DNA of 26,462 nt from a virus. Below, piece by piece: positions 6,087 through 22,343 of this stretch (position 1 is the first letter of the stretch; every line of letters starts with the position of its first letter). Below the pieces are notes generated by a model that worked only from the letters and a program-made list of their open reading frames with translations, ran no database searches and was not told the origin of the DNA. Location: positions 1 through 26,462 of the IMG/VR virus record IMGVR_UViG_3300045049_000204; one strand, written 5' to 3'. Made by a program: the position numbers and the translations under genes.

Positions 6087-6383
6087 GTGGGGGACATCTT
6101 CACCCTGGCCAAGAAGATGGAGCGGGCCGCACGCAACGGGACGGGCTTCAACGTCACGGCGGAGGAAATGCGCCTCCTATTGGCTGGAGACTGTTACAGA
6201 CTGATCCAGGAAATGAAGCTCAAGGAGTTACAGGCGAAGTGTCTGGGGCAGGAAAATACACTGTCGGGGAATACTGGCTCGACAAGCGCCGCGACGGAGC
6301 CAGCCCCGACATCTGGCAAATCACCACCTATAAGCGGGGCAGCCGCCAAATCGTATATCGCAGCACTAAGTGCCGCAGCCTAG
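6087..6383 (+). CDS. Small pre-integrase protein (possible excision/regulatory factor)
   Basis: Starts at GTG 6087 behind AGAGGAAAG (6071-6079). The first about 50 residues (MGDIFTLAKKMERAARNGTG, FNVTAEEMRLLLAGDCYRLI, QEMKLKELQAK) look like a genuine helical small phage protein of the kind often found just before integrase genes. The last about 45 residues are low-complexity Ser/Ala/Pro, and that part lies over the N-terminus of the integrase gene in another frame, so it looks like a passive read-through tail. Overlap with the integrase is 145 bases, unusually long for this operon. A role as a directionality factor is possible from position only; no winged-helix Xis pattern is evident. Confidence 0.55.
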   Translation: MGDIFTLAKKMERAARNGTGFNVTAEEMRLLLAGDCYRLIQEMKLKELQAKCLGQENTLSGNTGSTSAATEPAPTSGKSPPISGAAAKSYIAALSAAA

Positions 6384-7582
6384 AAGACGCGAAGGGTGCG
6401 CTCCATGCCTATGTGGACGAGGTACGCGCCACCAAGCCGACTACAACGGAAGCGCTCAAGGCGCTGCCGTCGATCATGGCCTACTGGCGCGAGCACGGCA
6501 AAAAGGCTGAGCGGCCCGACGCCATCGCCTGCTCCCTGCGCCTGTTCATCGGCTTTCTCATGCAGGACGCGGCTGGTGTGAATCTGACCTTCGCCCAGCT
6601 CGACCGCGCGCTGTTCGAGCGCTTCATTGCGTGGCGCATGGGGCCGCACGCCTACGAAGTCCCGTGGGCCGGAAAGGAATACAAGGGATCGAGCAAGGGC
6701 GTGAAAGGCGAGACGGTCAATAGCGACCTCGCGCGCGTCGCCGCTGCCGTCAACCATCAGGTCCGCTGGGGCCGCGTTCCCATGGCGCCGAAGGTGCCCA
6801 GCGTGGACAAGAAGCTGCGATCCGAGGCGCGAGAATACCGCTACAGCTTGAAGCAGATGGGCGCGATCATGGCGGTGGCATCCTATGACGTGCAGATGTT
6901 CCGCTGGCTGGCACTACAGCTTGCCACGCTGGTTCGGCCCGAAGCGGCGCTTGGGTTTGACCCGCGCCAGCAATACACTCCGGACACGGGCCTGATCGAC
7001 CTTCACCCCAAGGGTTGGCCGCGCACCAAGAAGCGCAACCCGGTCGTGCCGGCGATCGAGGAGTTCAAGCCGTTCCTGGAGACGTGGGCCGAGGATGGCG
7101 CGGAGATCGTGTCATCGCGCAAGGTGGCATGGCGGACGATCCGCCGCGTGCTGAACCTGCCGCTTGAGGCCGAGGCCAAGACGATCCGCTATTCGGTGGC
7201 CACCCTTCTGCGGAATGCGCACCGCGTGCCAGCAGACCAAATCGAGATGCAGTTGGGGCACCGCGCGATCAACTCCGTCACGGAGCGCTATGCGAAGTAC
7301 GATCCCGACTATCTGGCCGAATCAAAGGCCGCGCTGTCCAAGGTCTGGCAGGCCGTCATGGCGGAAGCTGGCCAGTGGCACGCTGTCCATTTGCTGTCCA
7401 AGACGGGCAACGGAAAGTCGATTGTGATTGACTTTCCAAGCGAAAAAAGCGAGGATTTCAGCCGTTGGAACGGTGGTGCCGCCTACAGGACTCGAACCTG
7501 TGACCCTCGCATTACGAATGCGAGAAAAGGCCAGAAAACCGCCGTTTCGCGTGAGGTACGCACGAAACGGAGTGGCAACTGA
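6239..7582 (+). CDS. int: Tyrosine-type site-specific recombinase (phage integrase) with attP in its 3' end
   Basis: A 447-residue tyrosine recombinase that would integrate the phage genome into a host tRNA gene. The N-terminus (KYTVGEYWLDKRRDG…) is an arm-binding-type domain. Residues about 70-180 form the SAM-like core-binding domain. The catalytic domain spans about 200-365, with box I Arg233 (LATLVRPEAAL), the beta-hairpin Lys264/265 (RTKKRN), Arg317 in KTIRYSVATLL, QLGHRA (His341) and the nucleophile Tyr351 in TERYAKY. The usual His of the HxxR box is Lys here. Residues 366-447 go beyond the family domain; 412-429 (GGAAYRTRTCDPRITNAR) are the conceptual translation of a tRNA fragment. 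The start GTG 6239 is the first available in frame and has a weak ribosome site. The stop overlaps the next ATG (TGATG). Confidence 0.9.
   Translation: MSGAGKYTVGEYWLDKRRDGASPDIWQITTYKRGSRQIVYRSTKCRSLEDAKGALHAYVDEVRATKPTTTEALKALPSIMAYWREHGKKAERPDAIACSLRLFIGFLMQDAAGVNLTFAQLDRALFERFIAWRMGPHAYEVPWAGKEYKGSSKGVKGETVNSDLARVAAAVNHQVRWGRVPMAPKVPSVDKKLRSEAREYRYSLKQMGAIMAVASYDVQMFRWLALQLATLVRPEAALGFDPRQQYTPDTGLIDLHPKGWPRTKKRNPVVPAIEEFKPFLETWAEDGAEIVSSRKVAWRTIRRVLNLPLEAEAKTIRYSVATLLRNAHRVPADQIEMQLGHRAINSVTERYAKYDPDYLAESKAALSKVWQAVMAEAGQWHAVHLLSKTGNGKSIVIDFPSEKSEDFSRWNGGAAYRTRTCDPRITNARKGQKTAVSREVRTKRSGN
7382..7400 (+). repeat. Left arm-type paired repeat of attP
   Basis: GCTGTCCATTTGCTGTCCA contains two copies of the octamer GCTGTCCA eleven bases apart, about one helical turn. 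The block recurs in the same orientation with one mismatch at 7603-7621, on the other side of the tRNA-derived core and at a similar distance. Paired direct repeats on both arms are typical of integrase arm-binding sites. A further single octamer occurs at 7333-7340, which may be coincidental coding sequence. Confidence 0.6.
7412..7437. repeat. Left inverted repeat beside the attP core
   Basis: GGAAAGTC (7412-7419) and GACTTTCC (7430-7437) are perfect 8-base inverted arms separated by ten bases. The element lies between the left arm repeats and the core. It may bind a recombination accessory factor or form part of the core-flanking site. It is inside the integrase reading frame, where it encodes nothing conserved. 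Confidence 0.5.
7474..7523 (-). other. attP core: 3' half of a tRNA-Thr(CGT) gene
   Basis: Read on the minus strand, 7523 to 7474 gives the anticodon stem-loop TCGCA-TTCGTAA-TGCGA with anticodon CGT, a 5-base variable loop GGGTC, the T arm ACAGG-TTCGAGT-CCTGT, the acceptor 3' strand AGGCGGC, discriminator A and an encoded CCA. No D arm or 5' acceptor strand (which would be GCCGCCT) follows beyond 7524, so this is not a functional tRNA gene. Such 3' fragments are the identity segment that lets a phage insert in a tRNA gene while regenerating its 3' end. The fragment lies in the integrase frame and is flanked symmetrically by inverted and direct repeats. Confidence 0.82.
7542..7570. repeat. Right inverted repeat beside the attP core
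   Basis: CCGTTTCG (7542-7549) and CGAAACGG (7563-7570) are perfect 8-base inverted arms with a 13-base spacer, ending 10 bases before the integrase stop. It mirrors the left inverted repeat across the core. It could be a protein-binding site of the intasome; no T-run follows, so termination is unlikely. Confidence 0.5.
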
Positions 7583-8097
7583 TGGGGAACGAAGCCGGAT
7601 TTGCTGACCATTTGCTGTCCATGCACGATTGGCGTTCGCGCCAACCTGCGTGGCAAGGAGCCGACGGGCTGCCCATGGCGCGCGGAGAGTTCACGCTTCG
7701 CTGGCAGGCCGGGGAGTGGTGGCTTAACGGCCCTGGCAAGTTGCGTGCGGTCGGCGGCGACCTGACCCACGCGCGTAAGGAGATGGACGCGGCGCACATT
7801 GCGCGCGTCTCCGCCCTCCCCGCCCCCGCTGTCCGAAGCGTCTATTTCATCGGCACCGAAGCCAAGGTCGGGCGGGCGGTGAAGATCGGGGTTGCAGATC
7901 AGCCCGAACGCCGCCTGCGCCAACTGCAGATCGGATCGGCCGCCCCTCTCCATATCCTCGCGGTGACGCCTGGGGGCGAGTTCGAGGAAGGCATCTACCA
8001 CGCGAAGTTCGCGCGCCTCCGACTGCGCGGCGAATGGTTCAGGATCAGTGCCGCCTTGCTCCGCGAGATCACTCGTCTGCGGAGTAAAGCCGCATGA
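7582..8097 (+). CDS. T5orf172-domain protein (GIY-YIG-like)
   Basis: A 171-residue protein. Residues about 85-155 match the T5orf172/MUG113 domain, a GIY-YIG nuclease-superfamily module: VYFIGTEAKVGRAVKIGVA holds the two beta-strands, RLRQLQIGSAAPLHILAV follows, and HAKFARLRLRGEWFRIS carries the conserved H-x-x-F…GEWF block. The N-terminal 80 residues are a Trp-rich lead (WRSRQPAWQG, WQAGEWWLNGPGKLRAVGG) with no known family. ATG 7582 overlaps the integrase stop as TGATG, so the gene is coupled to the integrase in the free phage; codons 8-14 lie in the right attP arm repeat. Nuclease activity is uncertain because the canonical GIY and YIG motifs are degenerate in this subfamily. Confidence 0.75.
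   Translation: MGNEAGFADHLLSMHDWRSRQPAWQGADGLPMARGEFTLRWQAGEWWLNGPGKLRAVGGDLTHARKEMDAAHIARVSALPAPAVRSVYFIGTEAKVGRAVKIGVADQPERRLRQLQIGSAAPLHILAVTPGGEFEEGIYHAKFARLRLRGEWFRISAALLREITRLRSKAA
7603..7621 (+). repeat. Right arm-type paired repeat of attP
   Basis: GCTGACCATTTGCTGTCCA matches the left arm block at 18 of 19 positions, in the same orientation, again with two octamers eleven bases apart. It sits inside the 5' end of the T5orf172 gene. Both copies are about 110 bases from the centre of the tRNA-derived core, the geometry expected of integrase arm sites. Confidence 0.6.
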
Positions 8098-18055: not shown

Positions 18056-20392
18056 TTAGGATGCGATCAGGAAGTCATTGCCCGGCGTGCAGCCGGCGGC
18101 GGTGCTGGCATCGCTCCCGTTGCCGCCGAAACACCAAAAGGGCTGGATCATGACGTCGTCTTCGCCCGCAATATAGCCGCCGAGGATTGACGCATTGGTC
18201 CGGAGGTTCAACTCGACCGTGTTGTTGCCGGTCGGGTTGGCCGGGTTTTCGCCCCACGGGAAGCCAACGTAGATCGGGCCTACGATCGGACTCGATAGGG
18301 TGAAGTGCACGGTGACCTTGCCGCTGACCGGCGCGTCGATCGTGGCCGCGGAGGCGACCGTGTCGAGCGTGGCATATGACAGTAGGTTGGCCGCGCTTGA
18401 GGCAAAGCGCATGCCTCCCCCGAACTCTGCACCACCGACACCGTACGCGGAGTTCAGGTAGCGCATCCCCGTAAGCGTGTTGAGATCGAACGTCACATTG
18501 ACGTGCGTATTGTCGACCTTGGCGACGGAGTAGGCCGCAGGTCCCAGCAGGTTGTAGCTCGACTTGCCGTCATACCAGGCCTGCGTCCGAGCCATCCGAC
18601 GATAGACGATCGCATAAGTGTCTGGGGAGAAGTGCAAATCCGAATATGTGCTGCCGGTTACCTGATGCTGCATGTCGAGCGCGAACGCCCCAAGCCGCAC
18701 CGATCCACCTCCGCTCCGGTTGGAATAATCATAGGCGAGCTTCGCCTGCGCTCGCCTGATTGCCTCCCAAGAATTGGTGGAGGTTGCACCGGAGGCGTGC
18801 GACCCGACTGGCTTCATGTAATAATTGATCGCGCGGCCATTGTAGGCATCGGCAAGATCGGCAAGCTGCAACCAAGTCGTGACGTACGCAGCGTCATCAC
18901 CGGTATTGCTCTCGCCATCGATCCAATAAATGGTTCGGATGTTCTTGCCGATGTTCCGAATAGCGCCAAGGAAGGTTGCCCAATCGACACTATTCGGGCC
19001 ACGCGTTTGGATGCTGGTCGAACCCCGTCCGCCCATGATCATGCCGACGCCGGTAGCGGCGGAATAATTGCTTTGAATCGTCCCGGCTAGGCCGCCCGCT
19101 AGGGCGCTATTTGGTGTATTCGATATTGCGACCGTGAAGTCAGATAGCGGCATACTGCCGGAGACATTGTTCGCAGCGTCGTAGTTATATGCGTTGGTCG
19201 CCGCCGTGAAGGTCTCAAGGGTCGCAACAGAAGAATAGCTGTTACCGGCGTTCGATTGGCCGTAAATCCCAATATTCTCCGACGGATAGACATAAGGCCC
19301 GTGAGAGCAAATAGATTTACCGCCGGCCGCGTCATTGCGACAGACCTTCAGCACATAGGCCGTGCCGGCAGAGGGGGTAAACGCTATCGTCTTGCCGGTT
19401 ATAGAACCGCCGCCGATCGACAGGCTTTGGATCGGCTGGTTCGTTTGGCCCGAAACGGCCGCGCCTGTGGACGTTGTGATCGAATATGACAGCGAAGAGG
19501 AAGCTGGATCCGAACCGGTATAGGTCGCGTCGATCGTGAGCTTGAGCGTTCCGTCAGTCTCGATCTGCGCGTTGTGCGTCGGCTGGAAAAGCGTCATCCG
19601 GTCGGTGCCGCCGGAATAGCCAAATTCGGCATCGTATGACGCGCCAGTGGTAGGCGCCAACCCATTCCAGCCATAATTGCCCGTCGGGGTGATCCCGAGG
19701 GCGGTCAGGTCAAAGCCGGTCGTCGGGAAAGATGGTGAGGCCGCAGTAGCCGAGATCTGTCGCCCATTGAGGCGCGGGATGATCTTGGTGCCGATCGTTT
19801 CCCATTCGAGGACGTCACCATTGTAAACAAGATGGCCGGTAACGCTGGAAGTTGTGCCGCCGGTGCCATTGCTGAACGCTTGAAGGTTGAAATATGTCGA
19901 CGTTCCGCCGCCTCCGCGCAGCCCCGAAAAGCTGTCAGTTCCGCCGACCATATTGCGGTGAAGCTCGAAGCGCTGGGTGCCCTGCACCATCGTGGTGCGG
20001 AAATAGCTGTACGGCGAGCCCGCATATTTCGCCGCGTGTGCGCTCGACGAACCCGAGGTGCCATACGTGTAATGGGTGGTCGTATTGACCTTCACGGCGG
20101 TGTTGCTGGCACCTGAGCCGCTATCGAGCAGCGTCGTGAAGCCGTTCAGGCCGTGGATGCTGATGGCGGTTCCCGTGCCCCAGCCTTCAGTCCCGGCGCC
20201 CGACCCCGCCGTGAAGGCGTAGAAGGTCGGGGCCGTTGGCGCGATCCAGGAGAGAAGGCGCCGATTGAACTTGAGGCCGGTCGAACTGAAGACAGGCGAA
20301 TAGGTCGGCGCGATCTGCGTCGCCCGAGCTTGCGCAACCTGCGGAAGCGCCAGCGATGCCAGCGCGGCTATGGCGAGTAAAAGCCTGCGCAT
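18056..20392 (-). CDS. Secreted-looking tail-associated SGNH/sialate O-acetylesterase-like protein
   Basis: A 778-residue protein beginning with a clear Sec signal peptide (MRRLLLAIAALASLALPQVA, likely cut after QA near residue 22). Residues 25-345 are a Gly/Ser/Thr-rich beta region of lectin- or tailspike-like composition. Residues 375-600 are an SGNH hydrolase related to sialate O-acetylesterases: block I IGIYGQSNAGN (Ser380), IYWIDGESNTGD (Glu494) and block V YSDLHFSPDTY (Asp585, His587). The last 170 residues form a further beta-rich domain. The likely reaction is removal of acetyl groups from surface polysaccharide, helping adsorption. Its gene is among tail-fibre genes. A signal peptide is unusual for a virion protein. 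Confidence 0.8.
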   Translation of the reverse strand: MRRLLLAIAALASLALPQVAQARATQIAPTYSPVFSSTGLKFNRRLLSWIAPTAPTFYAFTAGSGAGTEGWGTGTAISIHGLNGFTTLLDSGSGASNTAVKVNTTTHYTYGTSGSSSAHAAKYAGSPYSYFRTTMVQGTQRFELHRNMVGGTDSFSGLRGGGGTSTYFNLQAFSNGTGGTTSSVTGHLVYNGDVLEWETIGTKIIPRLNGRQISATAASPSFPTTGFDLTALGITPTGNYGWNGLAPTTGASYDAEFGYSGGTDRMTLFQPTHNAQIETDGTLKLTIDATYTGSDPASSSLSYSITTSTGAAVSGQTNQPIQSLSIGGGSITGKTIAFTPSAGTAYVLKVCRNDAAGGKSICSHGPYVYPSENIGIYGQSNAGNSYSSVATLETFTAATNAYNYDAANNVSGSMPLSDFTVAISNTPNSALAGGLAGTIQSNYSAATGVGMIMGGRGSTSIQTRGPNSVDWATFLGAIRNIGKNIRTIYWIDGESNTGDDAAYVTTWLQLADLADAYNGRAINYYMKPVGSHASGATSTNSWEAIRRAQAKLAYDYSNRSGGGSVRLGAFALDMQHQVTGSTYSDLHFSPDTYAIVYRRMARTQAWYDGKSSYNLLGPAAYSVAKVDNTHVNVTFDLNTLTGMRYLNSAYGVGGAEFGGGMRFASSAANLLSYATLDTVASAATIDAPVSGKVTVHFTLSSPIVGPIYVGFPWGENPANPTGNNTVELNLRTNASILGGYIAGEDDVMIQPFWCFGGNGSDASTAAGCTPGNDFLIAS

Positions 20393-20395
20393 GGA

Positions 20396-21400
20396 TCAGC
20401 CCGCCGTGTAGCCGCTGTTGACGTTCAGATACGTCTCAGCGGTCGCGGATGTGTTGGTCAGCCGCGCGCGATGATACCGCGTGAGCACGGGCACCTGGAG
20501 AATCAGCGGCGTTCCAGCCGTAACCGTGCCCGTCGCACAGACGTAATTCGAGGAAACGAAATTGTCGTTCGAGCAATCGATGTAGGCCGTGGCAGCCTGG
20601 TCCGTCAGGAAGAAGGCGCTGAAATAGCTGAACTGGTGATAGGTGCCTTTCGCGTAACCGCTATCCCTCGACAGACCTGTGAATGTCGGCGTTGCTCCGC
20701 CGCTCCCGGTCAGCGGGGACGTGACATCGCATCCGGATGCGCACGCGCCATTCCAGAAGATCGAACCGCGGTTGGCGACCTGAAGGTTGCCACTCACGTC
20801 CTGCTGATTGGGCTGCTGGTTGCCGTTGGGATCCTTCGCGCCGGCCAAGGTCGGCTTGGTCGCCGCCGTGGCGCCCGTGGTCGCCTGGGAGGCAGCGGTG
20901 TTGGCCGCAACTGCAGCGAGGTTCCCACCGGTCTCTTGGGCCGCGTTCGAAGGAAGCGGCAGGGCGGCGGCCGACACTGGCTGCGTCGCCTGCCAGAAGG
21001 TCCCGGTGACCGCGATCGTTGGCGCCGTGCCGATGTTGAAGGTGGGCGTGGAGGCGAAGGCGGGAAGAGTGCCCGAGATGCCGACATTCCAGGTCCCGCT
21101 CTGCTTGGCGATCGTGCGCAGATCGGCGCTGAGATTGGTCGAAAGCGGGTTGGTTGTGCTGCCTTCCGCATAGGTTGGCGGGGCGGCCGTCGCGGTGACC
21201 GTCGTGCTGCCGCCAGTACCACCTCCGGATGCCTTGTACGGCGTGCGAGCAATCGGGTCCCACAGCACTGCGCCTGGCACGCAGGTCCCGGCAGAGTCAT
21301 AGGACGCGCACGCTGCTGTCTGCGCCACAGCCCGGCCATCAAGCAGGCACGCAAAAGCAAGCCCGAGCGCCACCGCGCCCGCGCGAAGCAGGTTCTTCAT
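20396..21400 (-). CDS. Signal-peptide-bearing fibre-region protein, 334 residues
   Basis: Starts at ATG 21400 behind AAAGGA (minus strand, about 21407-21412); the in-frame start at 21475 would destroy the signal peptide. The product begins MKNLLRAGAVALGLAFACLL, a Sec signal with cleavage near AVAQ. The mature part is Ala/Thr/Gly/Ser-rich (TNPLSTNLSADLRTIAKQSG…) with NLAAVAANTAASQATTGATA-type helices. The C-terminal 90 residues contain four Cys (WNGACASGCDVTSPL, YIDCSNDNF, NYVCATG), consistent with disulphides formed in the periplasm. It precedes the esterase gene by three bases. It could be an exported partner of that esterase. No family recognised. Confidence 0.7.
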   Translation of the reverse strand: MKNLLRAGAVALGLAFACLLDGRAVAQTAACASYDSAGTCVPGAVLWDPIARTPYKASGGGTGGSTTVTATAAPPTYAEGSTTNPLSTNLSADLRTIAKQSGTWNVGISGTLPAFASTPTFNIGTAPTIAVTGTFWQATQPVSAAALPLPSNAAQETGGNLAAVAANTAASQATTGATAATKPTLAGAKDPNGNQQPNQQDVSGNLQVANRGSIFWNGACASGCDVTSPLTGSGGATPTFTGLSRDSGYAKGTYHQFSYFSAFFLTDQAATAYIDCSNDNFVSSNYVCATGTVTAGTPLILQVPVLTRYHRARLTNTSATAETYLNVNSGYTAG

Positions 21401-21422
21401 TTTCGATCCTTTCAGGTGGGCG

Positions 21423-22343
21423 TCAGAAGCCGATGGCGAACCAATCAAAGGTCGTGCCCGGGCCAGCCGCGACACTGGCCGAGGATGCCGAATAGATCGT
21501 CATGCCGGTCGTGGAATAATCCCCGGTGCCATGGAAAGCGCTTGGCGGCCCTCCGGCCGCGTTAGAGGCTAGAGCGCAGAGGCACGACGTGCTGAACGGC
21601 TTGGCGAAGGTGACCGCCTTCGCTCCTGACGAGTCGCTATGTTGGCCATTGCCCCAATTCAAGATGAGGCCACCTGGAAGAGTGACATAGCCGATCGCCG
21701 TTTTGCTGGCGATGAGTGGTGCGGCGGAATATTGCGAGATTGCGCCCGAGGTGATCGTCGTCGCGCCATACGCGACCGTAACAACCCACAGCCCCACGTT
21801 GCCCGCATCAGGCGTCGGAGTAACCTGCGAGCCCGTCGCGGCGGCGATCCCAGCCTTGACGGTCACTGCGACGGTAGCCTTGCGGGTGGTCGGCTGTGCG
21901 ACTCCGCTATTGTTCGGGCCAGTATACGCCGTGGTCGGGTCGGATGCGTTGTAATAGGGGAGCACGACATTATCGGTGTCGGTCTCGGAGAAGGTGGCCT
22001 GGATCAGGTAATTGATGCTCTGGCCCGTGGTCGTCGGTGCTGGACACGCTAACGTGACCGCGTCGAGCAGGATGCCCTGCTTCATGATCTGGTGAGCCGT
22101 ATCCGCCGCAAGAGAGCTGTAGGCGCTGCTATCGAGGTTCTGCTGGGAGTAGATTTCGCCCGCCCCCACTTTGACATTCATAGATGCAGGCGAGGTCGGG
22201 CCGCAGGAAAGTCCATTGGTTGTGGTTGCGCCTCCGAACATTGCCGAAGCCAGTGCCGCGAGCGCGACCATGGTATTACGTTCGGAGCCGAGCAGGTCGG
22301 TTTCGAGCGGGATCTGCCCAGGATAAATCAGCTTTCGGTCCAC
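21423..22343 (-). CDS. Tail fibre protein with gp53-like C-terminal domain
   Basis: A 306-residue protein starting at GTG 22343, chosen because GGAGG (minus strand, about 22349-22353) is well placed and because VDRKLIYPGQIPLETDLLGS matches the usual opening of such fibre proteins. The N-terminal part (NTMVALAALASAMFGG…PASMNVKVGAGEIY) is the baseplate-attachment region. The C-terminal domain (IGYVTLPGGLILNWGNGQHS…KAVTFAKPFSTSCLCALASN) is the gp53-like tail-fibre tip seen in many phages, which contacts the host receptor. The first 57 codons of the longer ORF lie over the terminator and the upstream gene and are not used. Genes downstream continue the fibre region. Confidence 0.82.
   Translation of the reverse strand: MDRKLIYPGQIPLETDLLGSERNTMVALAALASAMFGGATTTNGLSCGPTSPASMNVKVGAGEIYSQQNLDSSAYSSLAADTAHQIMKQGILLDAVTLACPAPTTTGQSINYLIQATFSETDTDNVVLPYYNASDPTTAYTGPNNSGVAQPTTRKATVAVTVKAGIAAATGSQVTPTPDAGNVGLWVVTVAYGATTITSGAISQYSAAPLIASKTAIGYVTLPGGLILNWGNGQHSDSSGAKAVTFAKPFSTSCLCALASNAAGGPPSAFHGTGDYSTTGMTIYSASSASVAAGPGTTFDWFAIGF

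Follow-up and report, generated by a model that had tools for sequence, protein, structure and literature searches.

What becomes of an integrase when the site at which it recombines lies within its own reading frame, and is the resulting change put to use? The question is raised by a viral stretch of 26,462 nucleotides (IMG/VR record IMGVR_UViG_3300045049_000204), hereafter the window. We understand this locus as a compact integration module of lambda type, from a temperate sphingomonad phage and in its attP form, in which the altered tail of the enzyme is most probably a tolerated by-product. That the att site is inside the integrase gene, and that a tail of 19 residues gives way to 6 encoded by the host, is confirmed by what follows. 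The features that first come into play are these:

6239 to 7582, plus strand: tyrosine integrase, 447 aa in its free (attP) form, recognized by its translation, its PHROG match, its catalytic residues and its model
7474 to 7523, minus strand: attP core, the 3' half of tRNA-Thr(CGT) with CCA (tRNA positions 27-76), recognized by BLAST and by matches to host tRNAs
7523 to 7582, plus strand: post-core tail of the free integrase, RKGQKTAVSREVRTKRSGN and a stop, read from the translation, which becomes MLYQLS and a stop when integrated

The integrase gene starts with GTG at 6239 and stops with TGA at 7580-7582. Its product matches phrog_1 (integrase, 2.6e-17), and the best folds found in the PDB are those of Tn1549 Int and lambda Int. 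The R/K/R/H/Y catalytic set of lambda-type tyrosine integrases is present: R233, K265, R317, H341 and Y351 are invariant in an alignment of 41 related sequences, in agreement with the preliminary description, which had placed the catalytic tyrosine at residue 351. The same description took residues 366-447 to be made largely of att DNA, which was too generous. In the AlphaFold2 model (mean pLDDT 86.5), a helix (360-383) and two strands (384-388 and 394-398) belong to an ordered integrase fold that is common to the family and extends up to about residue 398; only residues 412-447 fall below a pLDDT of 50 and are predicted to be disordered. The core begins 60 residues past Tyr351, and the catalytic domain is complete in L002, the integrated relative described below.

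Positions 27-76 of a tRNA-Thr(CGT) gene align by BLAST with 7523-7474 of the window, on the minus strand, at 98%, so that the half tRNA with its CCA is where it had been claimed to be. The core comprises the anticodon arm, with its loop at 7512-7518, the T arm and the acceptor with CCA. Translated antisense and in frame, it makes up residues 412-429 of an integrase whose 447 residues run on to 7582, again as previously proposed. ARAGORN and Rfam found no complete tRNA in the window, an expected outcome for ARAGORN since attP carries half a tRNA. The integrase has phage genes to its left, for a RecE-like exonuclease and a DNA polymerase exonuclease subunit, and to its right, for T5orf172, a DNA repair exonuclease and baseplate proteins. 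With phage genes on either side and no complete tRNA, the window is the attP form. Beside the baseplate genes stand two long open frames (18056-20392 and 20396-21475, both on the minus strand; 778 and 359 aa), neither of which had a PHROG match. Two further loci, L006 and L012, are also in the attP state: each contains this half of the tRNA and no complete one. In both, the core is read through by the integrase (60-64% identical), into free tails GKRGKAVVLRDFEREHGEAK and RTGRRTAASSRKRPERSGDK, respectively, that finish at an ATGA overlap with the T5orf172 gene; the overlap is TGATG in the window, and the three tails differ in size by 3 nt only.

The integrated state rests on a single member of the clade, L002 (IMGVR_UViG_3300009551_000356; integrase 82% identical over the protein), and attR was recovered in no locus. 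In L002 a complete tRNA-Thr(cgt) (7236-7311, minus strand) overlaps the 3' end of the integrase gene, which ends with CDPRITNAMLYQLS and a stop (NAMLYQLS) where the free form of the window ends with RKGQKTAVSREVRTKRSGN. The DNA to the right of this tRNA is chromosomal, its first gene (GRERRMHARAYDYWVSLLRGR) resembling the gene (ERRMHVRAYNHWVSLLRGR) next to the unoccupied tRNA-Thr(CGT), or attB, of the Sphingomonas genome L062. A search for the full tRNA in host genomes, as the preliminary description had proposed, recovered it as attB in Sphingomonadaceae: of 399 genomes, 5 carry the window core followed by a host D-arm (C or T at one acceptor-stem base), two of them exactly, and 71 carry a variant core with C replacing T. 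In all 13 inspected loci with a complete site the integrase frame is predicted to end with MLYQLS, because the stop TAA is supplied by the conserved D-arm, read antisense. The predicted tails of the two states therefore differ as had been anticipated, and the claim that integration rewrites the C-terminus of the enzyme stands, with the tRNA and MLYQLS end of L002 and the matching attB of hosts behind it. Host tRNA and window are the same up to 7523 and diverge from 7524, which places the exchange within the shared tRNA segment; to judge from this alignment, the crossover probably falls in the anticodon loop (7512-7518). The Thr-clade integrase was absent from the Sphingomonadaceae and Sphingomonadales genomes searched, making a comparison of attR impossible, and a single-protein scan of genome contigs returned no relatives. 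When phages were searched by tblastn for the core peptide, the hits were mainly phage tRNA genes.

The core is only the centre of the attachment site, which also involves the neighbouring gene:

7333 to 7340, plus strand: candidate arm-type octamer, GCTGTCCA, P side, -141 from the core start, proposed from repeat count and cross-locus spacing
7382 to 7400, plus strand: pair of candidate arm-type octamers with an 11-bp spacing, GCTGTCCATTTGCTGTCCA, at -92 and -81 on the P side, in integrase codons 382-388
7569 to 7572, plus strand: GGAG, likely ribosome-binding site of T5orf172, from the sequence and a similar GGAG in L012, L009, L021 and L007
7582 to 8097, plus strand: T5orf172/MUG113 protein of the GIY-YIG superfamily, 171 aa, from its profile match, starting 108 bp from the core start
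7603 to 7621, plus strand: pair of candidate arm-type octamers with an 11-bp spacing, GCTGACCATTTGCTGTCCA, at +129 and +140 on the P' side, at the start of the T5orf172 gene

The exact octamer GCTGTCCA occurs four times in 26.5 kb, always inside 7333-7621, where 0.94 copies would be expected across the whole window. Together with a fifth, near copy, these octamers (-141, -92, -81, +129 and +140 from the core start) delimit a full attP of 7333-7621, and the predicted arm-type sites flank the core on both sides, as in lambda-type systems. Their spacing is near-constant in eight attP loci (the window, L006, L012, L007, L009, L013, L021 and L038), with right-hand octamers at 129-130 and 140-141 and a left-hand pair 11 bp apart. 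The octamer itself tends to vary jointly on both sides, from GCTGTCCA to GCGGACCA in L021 and GCGGGCCA in L007. This layout is the pattern of arm-type integrase sites, to which the enzyme would bind. The P-side octamers are inside the integrase coding sequence and the P'-side ones in the first codons of T5orf172, whose ATG, at 7582, shares one base with the integrase stop. The distance from core start to downstream ATG is likewise kept, at 108-109 bp, in the window, L006, L012, L009, L013, L021 and L007. The T5orf172 gene matches the MUG113 (5.5e-10) and T5orf172 (1.1e-06) profiles above cut-off, and Y88, K101-I102-G103, R111 and E136 of its product are invariant. Scans for promoters and terminators yielded no hit beyond chance expectation.

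The sequence and geometry of the site, attL in a relative and attB in hosts are thus directly observed, and we may propose how they work together. The P-arm sites would be held, together with the crossover core, by the 3' part of the integrase gene, and the P'-arm sites by the first T5orf172 codons. The integrase would recombine attP with the 3' half of a tRNA-Thr(CGT) gene of the host, so that a whole tRNA again stands at the end of the integrase. As the antisense tRNA frame of this clade is free of stops before and within the crossover region, the integrase would be read through it, ending in 19-20 phage-coded residues in the free genome and, in the prophage, in MLYQLS, stopped by the TAA of the antisense D-arm. 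Co-transcription of the integrase and T5orf172 would be lost in the prophage. The changed tail would be a by-product of packing att into a gene, with at most a modest effect on activity of the kind seen in Mx8.

Relatives show that this read-through is not general. All four Thr-clade members have a frame that stays open across the core. Most relatives have their stop ahead of the core or within it, many integrases of the tRNA-Val type ending before the tRNA. The preliminary description had set its reading against two outcomes, another attB in prophages of this type and relatives whose integrase stops ahead of the core. The attB is indeed the tRNA it had predicted, but such relatives exist: in L019, where the half tRNA is likewise tRNA-Thr(CGT), the integrase ends ahead of the core, and a distant second integrase family found at tRNA-Thr(CGT) in Sphingomonadaceae (L188 and L190) stops about 15 bp before the tRNA gene. 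In five loci of the tRNA-Val type (L009, L013, L016, L037 and L038) the stop TAA is made by the antisense anticodon in the core (VGGDGLEPPTLSV and a stop, or similar), reading GTG TAA at the anticodon, and as a consequence the protein is unchanged by integration. The opposite arrangement is found in L010/L041, L031 and L032, where a 5' fragment of tRNA-Val (covering positions 1 to about 40) lies in sense orientation downstream of the integrase. In the five tRNA-Val-type relatives that allowed the comparison, the frame beyond the natural stop meets another stop ahead of the downstream gene; the difference from the attP loci of the Thr clade, 3/3 open against 0/5 in sequences that are not independent, is at most suggestive of weak selection for openness.

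Within the tail, the marks of a selected peptide are wanting. Between the window, L006 and L012, the body of the enzyme has the usual excess of third-position differences and the post-core tail lacks it: the third-position share of tail differences is 0.32-0.36, and a value as low as this occurs in just 2.6-4.6% of body windows of the same length. Residues 397-411 are likewise flat by codon position, and in the core it is the DNA itself that is fixed. Across the tail, the +1 frame is open as well in the three attP loci (3/3), which makes the openness of the integrase frame unremarkable, and the tails align no better than column shuffles (P for open and as good 0.10, 0.21 and 0.30). A conserved peptide and a degron were each considered for the tail and rejected, the former by the codon-position and frame tests, the latter by inspection of the C-terminal ends. 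The meaning that had been given to the swap, a mark of integration status or a change in stability, is therefore a weak proposition, there being no codon bias, an open +1 frame, predicted disorder and no ssrA-like end.

It is very improbable, in particular, that one of the two tails acts as a degron, in the manner of the integration-dependent immunity of mycobacteriophages. The C-terminus is a suitable, state-dependent place for such a signal, and disordered tails can serve as protease handles. No ssrA-like (LAA) degron is found at the integrase ends, the free forms finishing with SGN, EAK and GDK and the integrated form with QLS, unlike the tags known from mycobacteriophages (PMC9262239). A functional switch in which the free tail makes attP x attB recombination efficient, while the MLYQLS form is less active or changed in specificity and so stabilizes lysogeny, has more in its favour and is still unlikely. 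The same anatomy exists in Mx8, whose integrated form is less active or altered (PMC4701971, PMC6070905); the frame is open in every member of the clade, and the free tails are basic (+6, +6 and +2, against 0 when integrated). These arguments are met by a tail without amino-acid constraint, disordered in the model, of which only 19-20 non-conserved residues are lost (112 in Mx8) from an enzyme whose ordered part is whole in both states, and by relatives that manage without it.

The by-product reading of the tail leaves the fate of T5orf172 to be considered. Its uncoupling upon integration, as previously suggested, follows from the geometry as far as separation from the integrase is concerned, but no attR displays it; among 13 genomes holding relatives, two have a T5orf172 match, neither of them traced to an attR. 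The overlap might be fortuitous and of no consequence for this gene either, a hitchhiker beside attP with start signals of its own, and this we regard as possible, if on the doubtful side. T5orf172 does have its own GGAG ahead of its ATG, and unrelated genes occupy the same position in L007 and L038. Against chance, T5orf172 follows att in nine loci (the window, L006, L012, L009, L013, L019, L021, L030 and L037). Of 80 T5orf172 loci collected by sequence, a set that includes some of the integrase loci already named, 19 have close upstream a tyrosine integrase recognized by the model built here, several with a tRNA 3' fragment in between. By analogy, T5orf172 could conversely be a functional partner of att, combining a GIY-YIG-type nuclease domain with an integrase-type N-terminal domain at the arm-type sites; this is decidedly improbable. 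Only the free genome would yield it along with the integrase, since the gene is shifted by integration to the far end of the prophage, and one may speculate that it cuts rival att sites or promotes homing of the module. The N-terminal domain would be integrase-derived in L006 and L105 and perhaps of similar shape in the window, to judge from a low-confidence model: there the C-terminal domain is confident, the N-terminal strand-strand-strand-helix is mostly below a pLDDT of 50, and similarity to the integrase N-terminal domain is undetectable.

Attachment sites inside integrase genes are known from very few elements, integrative and conjugative elements (ICEs) in rumA among them (PMC4701971), and the Islander search provided for integrases of the Mx8 and SSV types, which reach over attP (PMC4383910). 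In Mx8, attP is within int, and the gene left by integration is a recombinant one whose 3' end is new and whose activity is altered (PMC6070905, PMC4701971). The window has the same arrangement, a likeness of layout and not of sequence membership: the attP core is inside the reading frame of a tyrosine integrase, and the C-terminus is replaced in the prophage form, as seen in L002 and predicted in the 13 loci. Mx8 exchanges a 112-residue end for 13 residues; in the phage described here, 6 take the place of 19-20, past the end of the ordered fold. With the IntP/IntX precedent of Mx8, the window integrase joins an already known phenomenon. The streptococcal ICEs in rumA also have att inside the integrase gene, and a C-terminus that differs after excision (PMC4701971); they differ from the window by a serine integrase and a target that is not a tRNA. 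SSV-type archaeal, or suicidal, integrases share a tRNA-gene att site translated as part of the enzyme and are split by integration (PMC8371274). In that type the catalytic part is separated from the N-terminal part, whereas here all catalytic residues precede the core. As in mycobacteriophage BPs, attB is a tRNA gene and crossover alters the 3' end of a phage gene, but in BPs attP lies in the repressor gene and ssrA-like tags are lost on integration (PMC9262239). The core of the window lies in the integrase gene and no such tag ends the free forms, in contrast to this system, to which the preliminary description's analogy with phages having attP in a regulatory gene refers.

A well-resolved case, with attP, attL and attB sequences, is thus added to these few elements, and relatives that stop before the core provide a natural control. 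The whole att, arms included, is in coding sequence at near-constant spacing, while the tRNA target and the end of the frame change between clades; the evolution of such overlaps is therefore easy to study. The recurrent T5orf172 neighbour suggests a connection, open to experiment, between phage integration and a protein of the GIY-YIG type, and its association with attP may be of more interest than the tail swap. In L006 (4338-4886), the T5orf172 protein encoded beside attP has at its N-terminus a copy of the N-terminal, arm-binding domain of a sphingomonad integrase (residues 19-78, about 50% identity, E 1e-13), and the same fusion is found in L105 (1790-2326), where the adjoining integrase is of a different type. 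One is reminded of ICP1 Odn, a nuclease of the T5orf172 kind that mimics the replication initiator of a rival and so arrives at its target (PMC9040626). The likeness, one of analogy, concerns the copied N-terminus of L006; Odn has a different DNA-binding part, and the window protein has no detectable similarity there. Finally, in L104 (from 2698) and L113 (from 2689), an open frame leading into T5orf172 begins at the integrase stop. In L104 this frame crosses an antisense tRNA 3' fragment (GGRYRARTCDLLGVN), and integration might there alter the start of the T5orf172 gene instead, from a putative start codon.
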